Positions 7,735 to 23,110 of a stretch of 34,516 bases of DNA are shown piece after piece. This stretch comes from an uncultured Alphaproteobacteria bacterium. Its GTDB lineage: Bacteria; Pseudomonadota; Alphaproteobacteria; HIMB59. Every line of letters begins with the position of its first letter. Positions within the stretch are counted from its first letter, which is position 1. The stretch lies in NCBI GenBank assembly GCA_902599405.1, contig CACKFO010000012.1, positions 1 to 34,516 on the forward strand, read 5' to 3'. The notes under the pieces were generated by a model. The model did not search any database and was not told the origin of the DNA. It worked only from the letters and a program-made list of their open reading frames with translations. The position numbers and the translations under genes are program-made.

Positions 7735-8637
7735 TTATTTCAAAAAGTTTATAGGTAATTTAACAACAGAATGATTGTGAAATTTTATATCATTTTTATC
7801 ATACATAAATAATTCGTATTTTTCGATTGTTTGAGAAGTTAAATTATTACATTTAGGTTTATCTAGTAACTTTTCACATTTTGTCTCTGCATTTACACCA
7901 TCAAAATAAACGATACGCTGTGGAATTATTTCAGTATTAAATGCTTTTTTATAACGTGATATGGCAGAGGCGTACAGTCCATATCTAAGATTTAGCTCCT
8001 CACCCTTAGATGTATTACTAGTTCCTTTAAAATCTATTTTTAAAATCCCATCAATCCATACCTTCATGAAACCTTTATCCTCATCTGGATGCCAATTTGT
8101 GTTAAAAATTATTTCTGTCCATTGGCCTAAAAGTACATCATTGCTTTTTAAAATTATGTGGGAGTCCTCAAACGAGTCTTTATTCCTGTTAAAAGTTAAT
8201 CCTGCATGAGTGTGTTGAAACATGACTAAAACTTTAGATGGGTTATGTCTTTTCCATTGGATTAACGACATTTTTGCAGGGGCAATAGAATTGTAATCTT
8301 TTGGAAGAAAAATATTAAACTTATACCACTTCTCTTTTTTCCACTTTTCGTGGCTGTAATATATTTCAGACCTCTCTCTATCTGTATCACAGTCACTTGA
8401 TTTAGGTTCTTCTCCGCACTCTCCATTATTAACTTCAAACTTTATAGATTTATCTCCAATAATTGAATTGCCGCTAACTGATATAGGATTTTTTGCATTT
8501 GGAGAGATTAATGGATGAAGTTCTTCAGGGATTATTTCTCCAAAACCATCTTGTTTTAAAGCTTTTTTAATTTCACTAAAACTTGAGGCAAGCACTAAAC
8601 TTGGCAAAAATATAAATAAAGTTAAGAATGTCTTCAT
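7735..8637 (-). CDS. Secreted polysaccharide lyase-like protein (heparin lyase I / PF14099 type)
   Basis: 300 aa with a clear signal peptide (TFLTLFIFLPSLVLAS, cut near residue 18). The body is a predicted beta jelly roll with features of the Polysacc_lyase family: DRERSEIYY, WYKFNIFLP, then MSLIQWKRHNP, W..I.F.....HPDEDKGFMKVWIDG, and RYGLYAS. Members cleave acidic glycans (glucuronan, heparin-like or alginate-like) by beta-elimination; the actual substrate is not evident. It is the first gene of a minus-strand operon with the ion channel and the 58-aa membrane protein. A tandem 11-bp repeat (8644-8665) sits 7 bases upstream of the ATG. Family call moderately confident. Confidence 0.75.
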   Translation of the reverse strand: MKTFLTLFIFLPSLVLASSFSEIKKALKQDGFGEIIPEELHPLISPNAKNPISVSGNSIIGDKSIKFEVNNGECGEEPKSSDCDTDRERSEIYYSHEKWKKEKWYKFNIFLPKDYNSIAPAKMSLIQWKRHNPSKVLVMFQHTHAGLTFNRNKDSFEDSHIILKSNDVLLGQWTEIIFNTNWHPDEDKGFMKVWIDGILKIDFKGTSNTSKGEELNLRYGLYASAISRYKKAFNTEIIPQRIVYFDGVNAETKCEKLLDKPKCNNLTSQTIEKYELFMYDKNDIKFHNHSVVKLPINFLK

Positions 8638-8643
8638 AGTTTT

Positions 8644-8665
8644 GCCCGTAATGAGTCCGTAATGA
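8644..8665 (+). repeat. Tandem 11-bp doublet A (integrase arm-site-like)
   Basis: Two head-to-tail copies of an 11-base unit: GCCCGTAATGA then GTCCGTAATGA. The same doublet recurs at 8828-8849 and 10105-10126 in the same orientation. It starts 75 bases before the broken tRNA copy; doublet C starts 73 bases before the intact tRNA. Confidence 0.8.
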
Positions 8666-8718
8666 ACATTGTATTAAATTTTTATTATTAATAAAAAGAG
8701 TATATAAATCAAGCTATT

Positions 8719-8757
8719 GGTCCTGTGGTGAAACGGATATCACACTTGACTACGGAT
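8719..8757 (+). pseudogene. Truncated copy of tRNA-Arg(ACG), 5' half
   Basis: 39 bases match the 5' half of the intact tRNA at 10178-10216, with one mismatch at acceptor position 4 (C for T); the last 35 bases are identical. Identity stops one base past the anticodon loop. The acceptor change would put C opposite A if rejoined to the 3' half, so this copy seems free of selection. It marks one boundary of an integrated element. Confidence 0.88.
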
Positions 8758-8827
8758 ATCCTACGTCGCTTTAATTCATTTATTATCAATACTATTCTTT
8801 GAGCTTTAACAACATTTTATCTATGTT

Positions 8828-8849
8828 GCCCGTAATAAGCCCGTAATGA
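8828..8849 (+). repeat. Tandem 11-bp doublet B (integrase arm-site-like)
   Basis: Two copies in tandem, GCCCGTAATAA and GCCCGTAATGA. It lies 70 bases to the right of the tRNA fragment and 22 bases from the 3' end of the cupin gene, on the element side of the left core. Confidence 0.8.
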
Positions 8850-8871
8850 AAATATAGCTAAAAATTTAGTT

Positions 8872-9303
8872 TTAAGGAGAGGTTGTAAATTTTATACCCT
8901 CTGCACCAATGCCCACTATCAGCGCTTTGAGTGTTATGTCACCTAAATTTTTTCCGTAATGAGCACTTTTACTATCCTCTATATATGCTTTACCAGGTTT
9001 GTAAATAGTAACTGTTCCGTCTTCCCAAGTATATGTCATCTCTCCTTCCATAATGTAAATATAAACAGGGTAAGAATGAACATGGTTTGGAGTTACACCA
9101 CCAGGAGGCACCTCAACTATAAATGAAACTATTTCAGCTTTTCCATCAGGATAATATATTTCATTTCCTAATATTGTAGTTGCAGATTTTAGAACAGGGG
9201 AAATTTTAGTTTTGAGATGTTCCTCAGAATGTAAAAATCCAAAACTAAATAGAAAAATTGAAAAAAGAAATATAAACCTAAATTTTTTAGTATAAATATA
9301 CAT
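8872..9303 (-). CDS. Secreted single-domain cupin protein
   Basis: 143 aa. A signal peptide or anchor (about residues 7-26, FRFIFLFSIFLFSFGFLHS) precedes one cupin_2 barrel. Cupin motif 1 is PPGGVTPNHVHSYPVYIYIMEGE (metal-ligand histidines in HVH and a glutamate in MEGE), and motif 2 is YKPGKAYIEDSKSAHYGKN with the last histidine. The complete motif set suggests a metal-binding, possibly enzymatic, periplasmic cupin; substrate unknown. It lies within the tRNA-bounded element and is transcribed away from the 9439 gene, sharing a divergent intergenic region of 135 bases. It may be element cargo. Confidence 0.8.
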   Translation of the reverse strand: MYIYTKKFRFIFLFSIFLFSFGFLHSEEHLKTKISPVLKSATTILGNEIYYPDGKAEIVSFIVEVPPGGVTPNHVHSYPVYIYIMEGEMTYTWEDGTVTIYKPGKAYIEDSKSAHYGKNLGDITLKALIVGIGAEGIKFTTSP

Positions 9304-9397
9304 ATAAACTCTTATAACATCTAAAAAAATATTATTTATTGCAAATGAGTAATATATATATTTAAAAAAAGAAATAATACTCTTAACAAGTAATTAT

Positions 9398-9403
9398 TAT
9401 AAT
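9398..9403 (+). promoter_or_regulatory. Possible -10 box for the 9439 gene
   Basis: A perfect TATAAT lies 35 bases upstream of the ATG in the divergent 9304-9438 gap. No good -35 is visible at 16-18 bases (best TAATAC at 9375-9380), so this is tentative. The RBS AAAAGGAG at about 9424-9431 is strong. Confidence 0.35.
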
Positions 9404-9438
9404 CATTTTTTTATAAATTTTAGAAAAGGAGATTAACA

Positions 9439-9843
9439 ATGCTTGGTAATAAAATTGGAACAATGACATTACAGGAAACTAATAAGCCAATGGACTCTGG
9501 TAAATATGGTTTACCTGCTATGGACATTACTGCTGAAGGGAGCGGAACGATGCTAGGTCATGATGTTCAGTCTATGGGCGCATTTACAGCCGAAATGAGA
9601 CCAGATGGTTCATGGGCAGGAAATGCCTATGCTGGGGTTGTAATGTGTGCAGAAGGTGTCGCCACATATAAAGCTACGGGTGTCGGAAACCAGAGGAAAG
9701 ATGGAGGCACTTCTTTTAGAGGTGGCGCTATATTCGAAACCACATCTGAAGCGTTATCTGAACTGAATGGTAAATTTTACGCATTTACTTACGAAGCCGA
9801 TGCAGATGGCAAAGCAGTTTGGGAGCTTTACCCCTTTAACTAG
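9439..9843 (+). CDS. Hypothetical protein, higher-GC orphan in the tRNA element
   Basis: 134 aa; not a family I can name. The sequence is rich in Gly, Ala, Thr and short beta-prone runs (GTMTLQET, SMGAFTAEM, GVATYKATG, GGAIFETTS, GKFYAFTYEADADG), which suggests a small beta-barrel of calycin or lipocalin type; that is inference. No signal peptide. A strong Shine-Dalgarno (AAGGAG, 8-9 bases before ATG) fixes the start. Base composition differs: 48% GC over 9541-9600 against about 27% over 10321-10380 in panC. This, and its place between attachment cores, point to recent transfer. Confidence 0.7.
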   Translation: MLGNKIGTMTLQETNKPMDSGKYGLPAMDITAEGSGTMLGHDVQSMGAFTAEMRPDGSWAGNAYAGVVMCAEGVATYKATGVGNQRKDGGTSFRGGAIFETTSEALSELNGKFYAFTYEADADGKAVWELYPFN

Positions 9844-9876
9844 AGGTTTGAAGATTTCACACCTCTGCACTACTAA

Positions 9877-9910
9877 GGAGGGAGGAAACACAACGTTGTT
9901 CCCTCCCCCC
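9877..9910 (+). terminator. GC-rich hairpin after the 9439 gene
   Basis: GGGAGG and CCTCCC arms enclose the self-complementary core ACAACGTTGT, giving an imperfect but strong stem. A smaller stem (AGAGGT 9842-9847 with ACCTCT 9861-9866) lies just before, over the stop codon. No T-tract follows, so a Rho-independent terminator is not certain; it could be an element-end structure. Confidence 0.35.
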
Positions 9911-9927
9911 GACAAACAACCTCTACT

Positions 9928-10083
9928 GATTAATCCCTTTTGTTCGCTAATGTAAGCCCTTGCTTCCCGCATATATTGAAAAGCTCGGGAATATCTTTGT
10001 CCCTTCATGTTCACTTCAGCTTGGAACAAGACATACCGATTGCCCTTTACATCTTTCATCTTTCGTTTAGTTATACTTCCCAT
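9928..10083 (-). pseudogene. N-terminal remnant of a tyrosine (phage-type) integrase
   Basis: Starting at ATG 10083 with an AAGGTG ribosome site, about 52 residues read MGSITKRKMKDVKGNRY, then FQAEVNMKGQRYSRAF and REARAYISEQKG. This is the arm-site DNA-binding domain found at the N-terminus of many phage and island integrases (short basic lead, three-strand sheet, R/K-E-A helix). After about residue 52 the similarity stops and the frame runs into the hairpin and the opposing gene, so the core-binding and catalytic domains are missing. It lies 94 bases from the intact tRNA-Arg, with doublet C just upstream of its start, as expected for an integrase beside its att site. The frame stays open further but is not homologous. 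Confidence 0.6.
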
Positions 10084-10104
10084 ATTCACCTTTCTGAAAC
10101 CTTT

Positions 10105-10126
10105 GCCCGTATAGAGCCCGTATAGG
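10105..10126 (+). repeat. Tandem 11-bp doublet C (integrase arm-site-like)
   Basis: GCCCGTATAGA followed by GCCCGTATAGG: the same 11-base period as doublets A and B, diverged in the AT half. It lies between the integrase start (10083) and the intact tRNA-Arg (10178). Confidence 0.75.
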
Positions 10127-10177
10127 TTTCGTAGGATTAAGTACAACGATTGAATAATGGTGATATACTTTGATTAA

Positions 10178-10252
10178 GGTTCTGTGGTGAAACGGATATC
10201 ACACTTGACTACGGATCAAGAATTCAGGGTTCGAATCCTTGCAGAACCGCCA
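10178..10252 (+). tRNA. tRNA-Arg (anticodon ACG), CCA encoded
   Basis: 75 bases fold as a full cloverleaf: acceptor GGTTCTG with CAGAACC, D-arm GTGAAACGGATATCAC, anticodon stem CTTGA/TCAAG with loop CTACGGA (anticodon ACG at 10211-10213, expected to be edited to ICG for CGU/CGC/CGA), T-arm CAGGG-TTCGAAT-CCTTG, discriminator G and genomic CCA. A likely -10 (TATACT, 10164-10169) sits 8 bases before the mature 5' end. The 5' half and promoter probably come from the inserted element, and the 3' half from the original gene. Confidence 0.96.
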
Positions 10253-21189: not shown

Positions 21190-21522
21190 TTAAAAAGGCA
21201 TCTTCATTCCTGGAGGCAATGGTAATCCACCAGTTATTTTTTTCATTTCTTCAGCTGACATTTCCTCAACTTTTTCTTTTGCTTGATTAAGTGCGGCTTT
21301 TATTAAATCCTCTAACACTTCTTTCTCATCAGAAGACAACAGTGATGGATCTATATCAATTGATTGAACAATTTGTTTACCATTCATTATAACTTTAACC
21401 ATTCCTCCTCCAGACTCAGCCTCCACGGTTTTATTTTCAAGCTCCTTTTGCATTTCTTGCATTTTGGCTTGCATTTCTTGGACTTTTTTCATCATACCGC
21501 CCATATTACCCATCATTTCCAT
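21190..21522 (-). CDS. ybaB: Nucleoid-associated protein, YbaB/EbfC family
   Basis: About 110 aa dimeric DNA-binding protein. Seen: methionine-rich lead (MGNMGGMMKK), coiled region VQEMQAKMQEMQKEL, then VKVIMNGKQIVQSIDIDPSLL and a proline-rich tail GGLPLPPGMKMPF. The start is ambiguous: GTG 21525, ATG 21522, or the ATGs at 21516/21513 are all in frame. I chose ATG 21522, just after an AGAGG site. It overlaps the dnaX 3' end, so translation is coupled. Confidence 0.93.
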   Translation of the reverse strand: MEMMGNMGGMMKKVQEMQAKMQEMQKELENKTVEAESGGGMVKVIMNGKQIVQSIDIDPSLLSSDEKEVLEDLIKAALNQAKEKVEEMSAEEMKKITGGLPLPPGMKMPF

Positions 21523-23110
21523 CACCTCTTTCTAATTCTTCAATATCTATAATCTTTGCATTAGGAAATTTAGCAAGAACTTTTTTAAATTCATCAGTCT
21601 TCATCTCCTTGTCAATTAATTCTTTTTTATATAGTGACTTAATTTTTTCTAAAGTTGTGATTTCTGTTTTAAGTACCATTTCGATTTTGTAATCATTTTC
21701 CAAATTTTTGTATAATTCTTCGCTTCCATTGAAATTTTTGTCAGATACATTTAGTCGTAATATTTTATTTTTCTCTGAAAAATCAATTATTTCAACATTT
21801 TCAATAATAATACCTGCCATAAGAGGTGAGAAATTTTTCCCATAAAATTGAAAAAATTTCTGATGAATATCAATTTTTTCTTTTAAAGAAATTGGCGATA
21901 CTCGTTCAACTTTGTTTTGAATTACTTGATCAATATTAGGAGAGGATTGAACTACACTCTGATTTATTTCAGACTTTTTTTTTTCTACTAAGTCTGTTGA
22001 TTGATTATCATTTAACAAGAAAGCACACCTAAGCATCACCATTTCTAGAGTTGCATGAGGTTGAGGCGAGATTTTAATTTCATCATAGCCCTTCATTAAA
22101 CTTTGCCAAAAAATATTTAACTTGCCACTATCAAATTGGATAACATAGGATGCAAAATTTTTATCTTCTTCAGTTAAAAATTCATCCTTAATGAGCTCTT
22201 GATTTATTTTTAATTTGCATGACCAATTTATTATATTCATCATATCTTCAACAATTTTAGAGGTCTCTGAACCTCTTTGATACATATCATCAAGCATAGA
22301 AATTAATTTTGATAAATTATTATCAAATATACATCTTGATAATTCATACAAATCACTTTGCCTTGCAAAGCCTAGCATATTAACAATTTCTTCAACTTGA
22401 ATTTCTTTTTGTGATTTAAATATATTAGCTTGATCTAATATACTTAAGGAGTCCCTTACTGAACCATCACTAGCTTTGACTATTAAGTTTAATGCCTCAA
22501 TAGAAATTGTTATATCCTCTTTTTTAGCAATACTTTTAAGAAAATCAGATAATGTCTTCTTCTCGACTCGTCTTAAGTCAAACCTTTGACATCTTGAGAG
22601 AATGGTAATAGGCACTTTAGAAATCTCAGTAGTTGCAAATATAAATTTTGAGTGAGGAGGTGGCTCTTCCAAAGTTTTAAGAAGAGCATTAAATGCACTT
22701 TTAGACAACATGTGCACCTCATCGACTATTTAAACTTTATATTTTCCTAAAACAGGATTATATTTTACATTTTCTATAATCTCTCTCGCATTTTCAACAC
22801 TTGTATTTGATGCAGCATCAATTTCTATAACATCTGGGTGTCTATCTTCGGTGATGGCTTTTGCTTGCTCACAATTGATTAAATCAGGATTATTATTTTT
22901 ATCAAAAACTGTACAGTTCAACATTTTTGCAACAATTCTTGCTGTTGTTGTTTTACCTACTCCGCGTATACCTGTAAAAATATATGCATTAGGGATTTTA
23001 TTTTGCTCTATTGATTTTTGAATAGTCTCAACTAAATACTCTTGACCAATTAGATCTTGGAAATTTAAAGGTCTATATTTTAATGCAAGAATATTCGATT
23101 GATGTTTCAT
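21506..23110 (-). CDS. dnaX: DNA polymerase III subunit tau/gamma, interrupted by an in-frame TAA at codon 127
   Basis: 534-codon clamp-loader ATPase gene. Walker A is GIRGVGKTT (residues 47-55) and sensor/arginine-finger regions are present (LLKTLEEPP, ILSRCQRF, GSVRDSLSILDQA). The reading frame is continuous except for one TAA (22732-22730) between KYKV and IVDEVHMLS, exactly where homologues have tyrosine; TAT to TAA is one base, no frameshift is involved, and Walker B (DEVH) follows at once. Loss of this essential ATPase should be lethal, so a sequence error or a rare variant is likelier than a true pseudogene. Only two of the usual four zinc-module cysteines remain (C66, C80). A slippery A-tract at codons 376-379 could make the short gamma form. 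Follows the SRP RNA and overlaps ybaB. Confidence 0.9.
21958..21996 (-). promoter_or_regulatory. Candidate programmed frameshift/slippage site in dnaX (gamma form)
   Basis: On the coding strand ten A residues (21984-21975) end in AAG in frame, so the E. coli dnaX heptamer A AAA AAG is present in the correct phase. A -1 shift gives one codon, GTC, then TGA; the other alternative frame meets TAA three codons on. A 7-bp inverted repeat CAGACTT/AAGTCTG (21996-21990 and 21976-21970) puts most of the A-tract in a loop, and a second stem TCTGA/TCAGA (21973-21958) lies just after. The product would be about 380 aa, ending at the domain III/IV border. Confidence 0.55.

Follow-up and report, generated by a model that had tools for sequence, protein, structure and literature searches.

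In the genome of an uncultured alphaproteobacterium of the HIMB59 lineage (assembly GCA_902599405.1), three paired 11-bp direct repeats, or doublets, lie beside copies of the tRNA-Arg(ACG) gene and are probably arm-type sites of tyrosine integrases, a reading to which we give a probability of about 0.82. The doublets lie on contig CACKFO010000012.1, all 34,516 nucleotides of which form the window analyzed here, and appear to mark two successive insertions at this tRNA gene. Arm-type sites are difficult to recognize from sequence alone, and a sequence-only reading of the window had proposed them from their layout. Fixed geometry, an 11-bp period, matching doublets in the two arms of a cassette, and analogous doublets beside intact integrases now support that proposal, and the doublets are very probably docking sites of the recombining enzyme. 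Together, the three doublets and their recurrence across the genus are far beyond chance.

Doublets and Insertions in the Window

The coordinates, single orientation, and tRNA distances that the sequence-only reading gave for the doublets are all correct, and so is the GCCCGTA start of their units, except that the second unit of doublet A reads GTCCGTA (Table 1). Doublet A begins 75 bp 5′ of a truncated tRNA copy, 70 bp separate that copy from doublet B, and 21 bp separate doublet C from the start codon of a 52-codon frame that is putatively the remnant of an integrase N-terminus. GCCCGTA occurs six times in the window (0.44 expected), a count that none of 100 shuffles reached; one of the six, at 1277, is a lone unit away from the doublets. 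The doublet pattern GCCCGTAWNRRGYCCGTAW, with at most one mismatch, matched exactly A, B, and C in the whole assembly (1,258,564 bases, 89.5% complete), and the control matched nothing.

Table 1. Features of the tRNA-Arg(ACG) array in the window.
Feature	Coordinates	Strand	Remarks
Polysaccharide lyase (PF14099)	7735–8637	−	Cargo of the older insertion; start codon 6 bp from doublet A
Doublet A	8644–8665	+	Read as integrase-side arm of the older polysaccharide-lyase insertion; same kind closes complete lyase cassettes elsewhere
Window's own cassette, 1,459 bp	8719–10177	+	From truncated tRNA copy to restored tRNA; tRNA direct repeat
Truncated tRNA-Arg copy, nt 1–39	8719–8757	+	attL-like core; identity stops in the anticodon stem
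Conserved core-to-B spacer	8758–8827	+	Begins ATCCTACGTC; common to cassettes of differing doublet types
Doublet B	8828–8849	+	Candidate distal arm-type site; +109 from start of truncated copy
Cupin gene (cargo)	8872–9303	−	PF07883 (Pfam); signal-peptide-like start (by eye)
134-aa protein gene (cargo)	9439–9843	+	No Pfam match and no convincing PHROG match
Putative integrase N-terminus remnant, 52 codons	9928–10083	−	Present in 13 of 52 genomes
Doublet C	10105–10126	+	Candidate integrase-proximal arm-type site; begins 73 bp before tRNA
Intact tRNA-Arg(ACG)	10178–10252	+	5′ half and upstream region thought to arrive with the cassette

Doublets B and C and the 52-codon putative remnant belong to the 1,459-bp cassette. 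The lyase gene starts so close to doublet A that we assign A to the end of a separate, earlier insertion, the left tRNA copy of which is unrecognizable in the window; complete lyase cassettes of 1,128–1,147 bp (L082, L084, L094, L109, L113, and L115) are closed by a doublet of the A kind. With A assigned to the older insertion, C–core–B remains as the attP order of the window's element. Thus, of the earlier arrangement of three doublets around one core, the attP-like order C–core–B of a released circle is retained and the inclusion of A is given up.

The younger insertion would be the cassette itself, carrying the cupin gene, the gene for the 134-aa protein, and 52 codons from the start of a putative integrase gene. 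The excised circle would read C, tRNA 5′ half (core), B, and crossover would fall within the anticodon loop or close to it, at the point at which the common 39 nt stop. Integration would leave the old tRNA 5′ half with B at the left and restore a complete tRNA, while the older polysaccharide-lyase insertion would have left doublet A behind. The sequences upstream of cassette and native tRNAs differ, and each insertion appears to replace the tRNA upstream region, with the cassette bringing both the 5′ half and the promoter. An integrase supplied in trans may mobilize cassettes that have no integrase gene of their own, and the same-type doublets on both sides of most cassettes would presumably match the N-terminal domain of their integrase.

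Cassettes at tRNA-Arg(ACG) Across the Genus

Our sample of the host genus, probably HIMB59, comprised 52 genomes, 40 of which contain an identical 75-nt tRNA-Arg(ACG), and the upstream stretch (2.3–17.9 kb) was taken from all 40. Cassettes marked by 39-nt copies of the tRNA 5′ half were delimited in 23 of these genomes (15 with one, eight with two), giving 31 cassettes of 649–2,526 bp; the L107 cassette, which has a degenerate left copy, was left out. In all 31, alignment of the truncated copy to the tRNA reaches its fourth mismatch at nt 40–43, and the conserved spacer follows the truncated copy in 30, the exception being the second copy of L115. With a doublet called as a period-11 match of at least 6/7, the B position (about +109) is filled in 26 of the 31 cassettes, the C position (about 72–75 bp before the next tRNA copy) in 25, and both in 23. 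Control periods of 8, 9, 10, 12, 13, and 14 gave at most three cassettes at either position and none at both, and random positions in cassette interiors gave a period-11 match in 32 of 6,200 cases. Other genomes show empty sites with a similar left flank, as judged by eye.

Comparison of coordinates in all 23 genomes placed no PF00589 match inside any of the 31 cassettes, and the selected cassette open frames that were compared with Pfam included no transfer gene. The cassettes combine attL/attR-like flanks (tRNA repeat plus doublets) with the lack of an integrase gene beyond, at most, a 52-codon fragment, which suggests that they are cis-mobilizable elements (CIMEs), perhaps moved in trans. 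Unlike cassettes have common ends, and for this reason we rejected a simple tandem duplication of the locus. No intact element was found at the tRNA-Arg(ACG) site in the genomes searched.

The attP-core pattern was found in 22 stretches of genome contigs, among them 18 from uncultured Alphaproteobacteria, one from a Pelagibacteraceae bacterium, and one from alpha proteobacterium HIMB59; the other two, in Cyclobacterium and in a Clostridia bin, appear accidental. Across 162 genomes belonging to the order, the attP region extends past the tRNA half only in family f1 among the matches listed. Viral contigs gave no match to the attP-core pattern and two matches to a shorter version, both unrelated by eye.

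About 1,696 bp before the tRNA in L084, a doublet links the right-hand part of one cassette with the B end of a different one, and no tRNA copy lies between them, as would follow from recombination between two doublets with loss of the core. On the C side of L091 and L115, one 11-bp unit is absent relative to close relatives, likely a slip between repeats. The cargo of the L084 and L088 cassettes includes an HNH endonuclease, a PLD-like protein, and an HNH-HIT fusion, possibly involved in defense. Elsewhere in the window, at 21506–23110, one gene appears as two open frames (126 and 403 aa), which could be an assembly error; we take this gene to be dnaX-like.

Doublet Types and Pairing of the Two Arms

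In the 52 genomes, CCCGTAWNRNKYCCGTAW has 28 matches in 16 genomes, and the reversed pattern has none. Twenty-seven of these CCCGTA doublets lie in tRNA-Arg(ACG) arrays, the farthest about 4 kb 5′ of the tRNA, and the remaining one is at tRNA-Arg(TCG) in genome G023. The check that the sequence-only reading had invited, for doublets away from tRNA or integrase genes, therefore came out in its favor, with all 28 in tRNA-Arg arrays. A second pattern, GTGTGTAYTGAGTGTGTA, of the GTGTGTA type, has six matches in three genomes with one mismatch allowed, all six at tRNA-Arg(ACG). The doublet pattern also had 11 matches in viral contigs, which we judged to be chance: they lie inside long open reading frames (by eye), their loci have no tRNAs, and several are copies of one sequence.

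Doublet sequence varies between cassettes and agrees between B and C of one cassette. The types are CCCGTA, GTGTGTA (L085, L099, and L105), GTGTGTTA (L104 and L106), and CCGGTA (L081 and L111). The 31 cassettes were grouped by interior content into nine clusters, and one representative of each, with a doublet match of at least 6/7 required on both sides, entered a permutation test. The B–C similarities summed to 144, whereas permutations averaged 113.6; 28 of 200,000 permutations reached the observed sum, and the highest gave 146. The cassettes thus have what is expected of integrase arm sites, namely fixed-distance sites on both sides of the core and the same element-specific sequence in both arms. 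Polysaccharide lyases (PF14099) with signal-peptide-like starts occur beside three doublet types, in the L081 and L104 cassettes and in the window.

Intact Integrases of the Genus

Fourteen loci with unusual PF00589 matches were fetched and grouped by us into nine families. Frequent PF00589 matches of 286 and 329–332 aa were left out, along with fragments and a few others. We take these frequent proteins to be Xer-like. In four families, a perfect period-11 doublet begins 30–55 bp before the integrase start codon (150-bp search); a fifth has a period-12 doublet within 150 bp 5′ of the start codon, and a sixth, also present in the window's own genome, has a doublet between tRNA-Arg(TCT) and the integrase gene. 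Random 150-bp windows from the same loci, real doublets included, gave 108 period-11 matches in 5,000. The sequence-only reading had called for doublets beside intact relatives of its integrase; no intact integrase with that N-terminus turned up, so the check could be run only on other integrases of the genus, and doublets beside the integrase gene were present in six of the nine families, at period 12 in one.

Eleven stretches were searched for a partner doublet at the far end of the element, two of them short (G029, 7.0 kb; G008, 3.3 kb). The partner is clear in G032, G050, G003, and G051, which represent three element types, and weak in G000 and G035 (6 and 5 of 7). In all six elements with a partner, a tRNA copy adjoins it: the 5′-terminal 41 nt in G032, 42–47 nt in G050, G000, and G035, and 76–78 nt in G003 and G051. 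The tRNA-Ala element (G032; L068, L204, and L205), about 4.7 kb with a 327-aa integrase, resembles the cassettes in its 5′-half tRNA copy, its far-end partner, and a doublet starting, like C in the window, 73 bp before the tRNA; the integrase start is 46 bp from this doublet. It differs in carrying the integrase and in having another doublet sequence and another tRNA.

In viral contig L183, which is unrelated, a PF00589 integrase is accompanied by 44-nt tRNA-Thr repeats with a GTGTGTA doublet near both, one of the doublets overlapping the 3′ end of the integrase gene. In L073 (G003:C4), a second doublet of another sequence (GTCGGAG) lies beyond tRNA-Gly, outside the intact element.

A Second Locus, tRNA-Arg(TCG)

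We read 21 tRNA-Arg(TCG) loci, a subset of all tRNA matches taken with no G+C filter. A period-11 match of at least 6/7 precedes the intact tRNA at 16 of them. Seven left-hand copies with a cassette were read; their architecture resembles that at tRNA-Arg(ACG), with different doublets and with B at different distances. B and C units are alike by eye in four of the seven cassettes (two each in L188 and L196), and the C doublet of one L188 cassette has a 12-bp spacing. In L176 (G023:C7), a CCCGTA-type arm and core occur at tRNA-Arg(TCG), where a chimeric copy joins the 5′ part of tRNA(TCG) to an ACG-type core, as would result if an element had inserted into the other tRNA.

Fourteen loci from 13 genomes of the sister family were read, leaving aside one further region that consists of a 10-base placeholder, and one of the loci (G519) has an array at tRNA-Arg(TCG), with three tRNA copies and GTGTA-type doublets. 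These have period 11 behind copies 1 and 2 and period 12 before copy 3; no doublet precedes copy 2.

The Putative Integrase Remnant

The 52-codon frame is a putative integrase start mainly by its position, which is that of integrase starts in intact elements, and by a weak similarity in sequence. Compared with five integrase N-termini, its alignment score was reached by 7, 11, and 22 of 1,000 shuffles for three of them and by 170 and 405 of 1,000 for the other two. A search of PHROGs gave nothing useful, and the predicted structure matched no solved structure at E < 0.001. The sequence-only reading saw an integrase N-terminal remnant beside C; with this similarity and position behind it, that identity stays putative.

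Weighing the Arm-Site Reading

The case that the doublets are arm-type sites is comparative, built on the sites themselves, their geometry and pairing, filled versus empty sites, analogues beside intact integrases, and the excess of cassette over flank identity; from these we infer protein binding, excision, action in trans, and a helper integrase. Several observations weigh against it. A doublet is lacking at one or both positions in eight of the 31 cassettes, and L080, L086, and L116 have an A-type doublet at tRNA-Arg(ACG) with no truncated copy, which we read as insertions whose left end is lost or past recognition. Three of the nine integrase families (L071, L072/L074, and L079) lack a perfect doublet within 500 or 150 bp of the integrase gene, and no believable far-end partner was found in five of the 11 stretches (G013, G023, G038, G029, and G008). 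At tRNA-Arg(TCG), two of the seven cassettes have unlike B and C (L176 and L203), and one has no doublet (L189). Of the 16 loci there that show no truncated copy in the examined stretch, 12 nevertheless have a doublet-like match before the tRNA. For the remnant, Pfam gives no match, resemblance to integrase N-termini is weak, and the predicted structure is uninformative (mean pLDDT 74.8, pTM 0.32). Finally, the search proposed by the sequence-only reading, for an intact integrase with the N-terminus of the remnant, found none in the 52 genomes of the genus, 385 genomes of the class, viral contigs, or phage records.

A question of mobility alone is whether the arm sites are real and the cassettes are now relics, inherited or exchanged by homologous recombination with no site-specific movement at present. 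This would fit the lack of PF00589 matches in all 31 cassettes, the in-frame stops in 10 of 13 remnants, and the cassettes that are short of a doublet. The identity of cassettes relative to their surroundings was compared for 22 of the 31, using the best alignment of each and a 1,150-bp flank on the panC side. Cassettes are more alike than flanks in 43 of 45 pairs of the 1,460-bp type, 13 of 15 pairs of the lyase type, and all three other pairs. The exceptions, in which the flanks are more alike, are L082 and L094 versus L113 (88.5% cassette, 97.1% flank), L091 versus L098 (96.0 and 96.7%), and L106 versus the window (97.0 and 97.9%). Homologous recombination could have spread cassettes or could explain part of this excess, a further point against the main reading. 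However, the lyase cassettes of L109 and L113, which have no integrase, are 98.6% identical between flanks that are 83.3% identical, the same cassette occurs at different places in arrays, and both doublets are kept in 23 of the 31. We give the relic account somewhat less than even odds, and consider the chances of present-day mobilization in trans to be about evenly balanced.

It is very improbable that the doublets serve only as operators for control of the integrase promoter by a repressor or by the integrase N-terminus itself, with no role in recombination. Their place shortly before the integrase start codon in four families would suit such a role, as would GTGTGTA doublets immediately 5′ of a small gene in three viral contigs (L179, L181, and L182), looking like an operator rather than an att site; we presume this small gene to be HicA-like. 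Yet the matching partner is found at the opposite end of the element, next to the second tRNA copy and away from the integrase start. Doublets could serve both as operator and as arm site.

Still less credit is due to the idea that the doublets are upstream regulatory elements (activator or promoter sites) of the tRNA-Arg gene, unrelated to integration. The fixed distance before tRNA-Arg(ACG) and the doublet-like matches at tRNA-Arg(TCG) loci without a truncated copy speak for it. Against it, matching doublets also stand at +109 behind truncated copies, 12 of 40 tRNA-Arg(ACG) loci have neither a truncated copy nor a CCCGTA-type doublet, and in intact elements at other tRNAs the doublets sit between tRNA and integrase gene. 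Equally slight is the chance that the 52-codon frame is no pseudogene and encodes a functional small doublet-binding protein that regulates mobility, for although it is open in three of 13 genomes and has 92–100% amino-acid identity over 51–52 residues in 12 of 13, a stop interrupts it in 10 of the 13.

Relation to Known Integrative Elements

The comparisons below draw on excerpts of the cited papers. Paired 11-bp arm repeats flank the common core in the cluster K mycobacteriophages CrimD and Pixie, in which attP lies 5′ of the integrase gene and arm sequences vary between related phages (PMC3203893). As in HIMB59, 11-bp pairs surround a core in an RNA gene, but the second pair of CrimD is inverted whereas all HIMB59 doublets are direct, and the HIMB59 arms lie in integrase-less serial cassettes of 0.65–2.5 kb at the 5′ half of a tRNA. 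CIMEs and their tandem accretion (PMC5704250) share with the cassettes the retention of attL/attR-like ends, the lack of an integrase gene, and serial insertion in one gene; the HIMB59 cassettes are unlike them in being small and in having several arm types per site.

The Dehalococcoides ssrA islands also stand in tandem at one RNA gene and are marked by short direct repeats; 15 islands have no integration module, and the main text of that study never uses the term "arm-type" (PMC3146451). They differ in using serine recombinases and in repeating the 3′ end of the RNA gene. Closer in lifestyle is Ca. Methylopumilus, likewise a streamlined planktonic bacterium with tRNA-repeat islands, the additive flexible islands of which start at 330 bp and have recurring 20-bp tRNA-Lys-end repeats (PMC10872708); here the repeat is the last 20 bp of the tRNA, and the excerpts describe no arm sites. 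Tycheposons also carry cargo at tRNA genes of streamlined marine bacteria and, as described in the same source, measure 4–200 kb and encode their own tyrosine recombinase; the HIMB59 cassettes, at 649–2,526 bp and with no recombinase match, fall outside that description. In HIMB59 itself, phosphate islands without tRNA at their boundaries have been attributed to a proposed homologous recombination, in a paper whose main text mentions tRNA once and integrase never (PMC10734472). No title or abstract among the top-ranked results of our literature search, which mostly lay outside subscription papers, concerned these tRNA-Arg cassettes.

What emerges is a record of repeated integrase-less insertions, of one to several genes each, at one tRNA gene of a streamlined ocean bacterium. 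We suggest, as a speculation that we hold to be somewhat doubtful, that HIMB59 populations share small cassettes, piled up at tRNA-Arg genes, as a common pool moved in trans by passing integrases, much like an integron without a resident integrase. The paired doublets would be the integrase address, the tRNA promoter would be donated by the cassette, and lyases would travel under three addresses; the cassette ends are tRNA halves with doublets. The many natural arm variants at fixed positions of one locus would allow doublet sequence to be compared with the integrase N-terminus once helpers are found. Such cassettes would give highly streamlined ocean bacteria a concrete site-specific route for the transfer of single genes.

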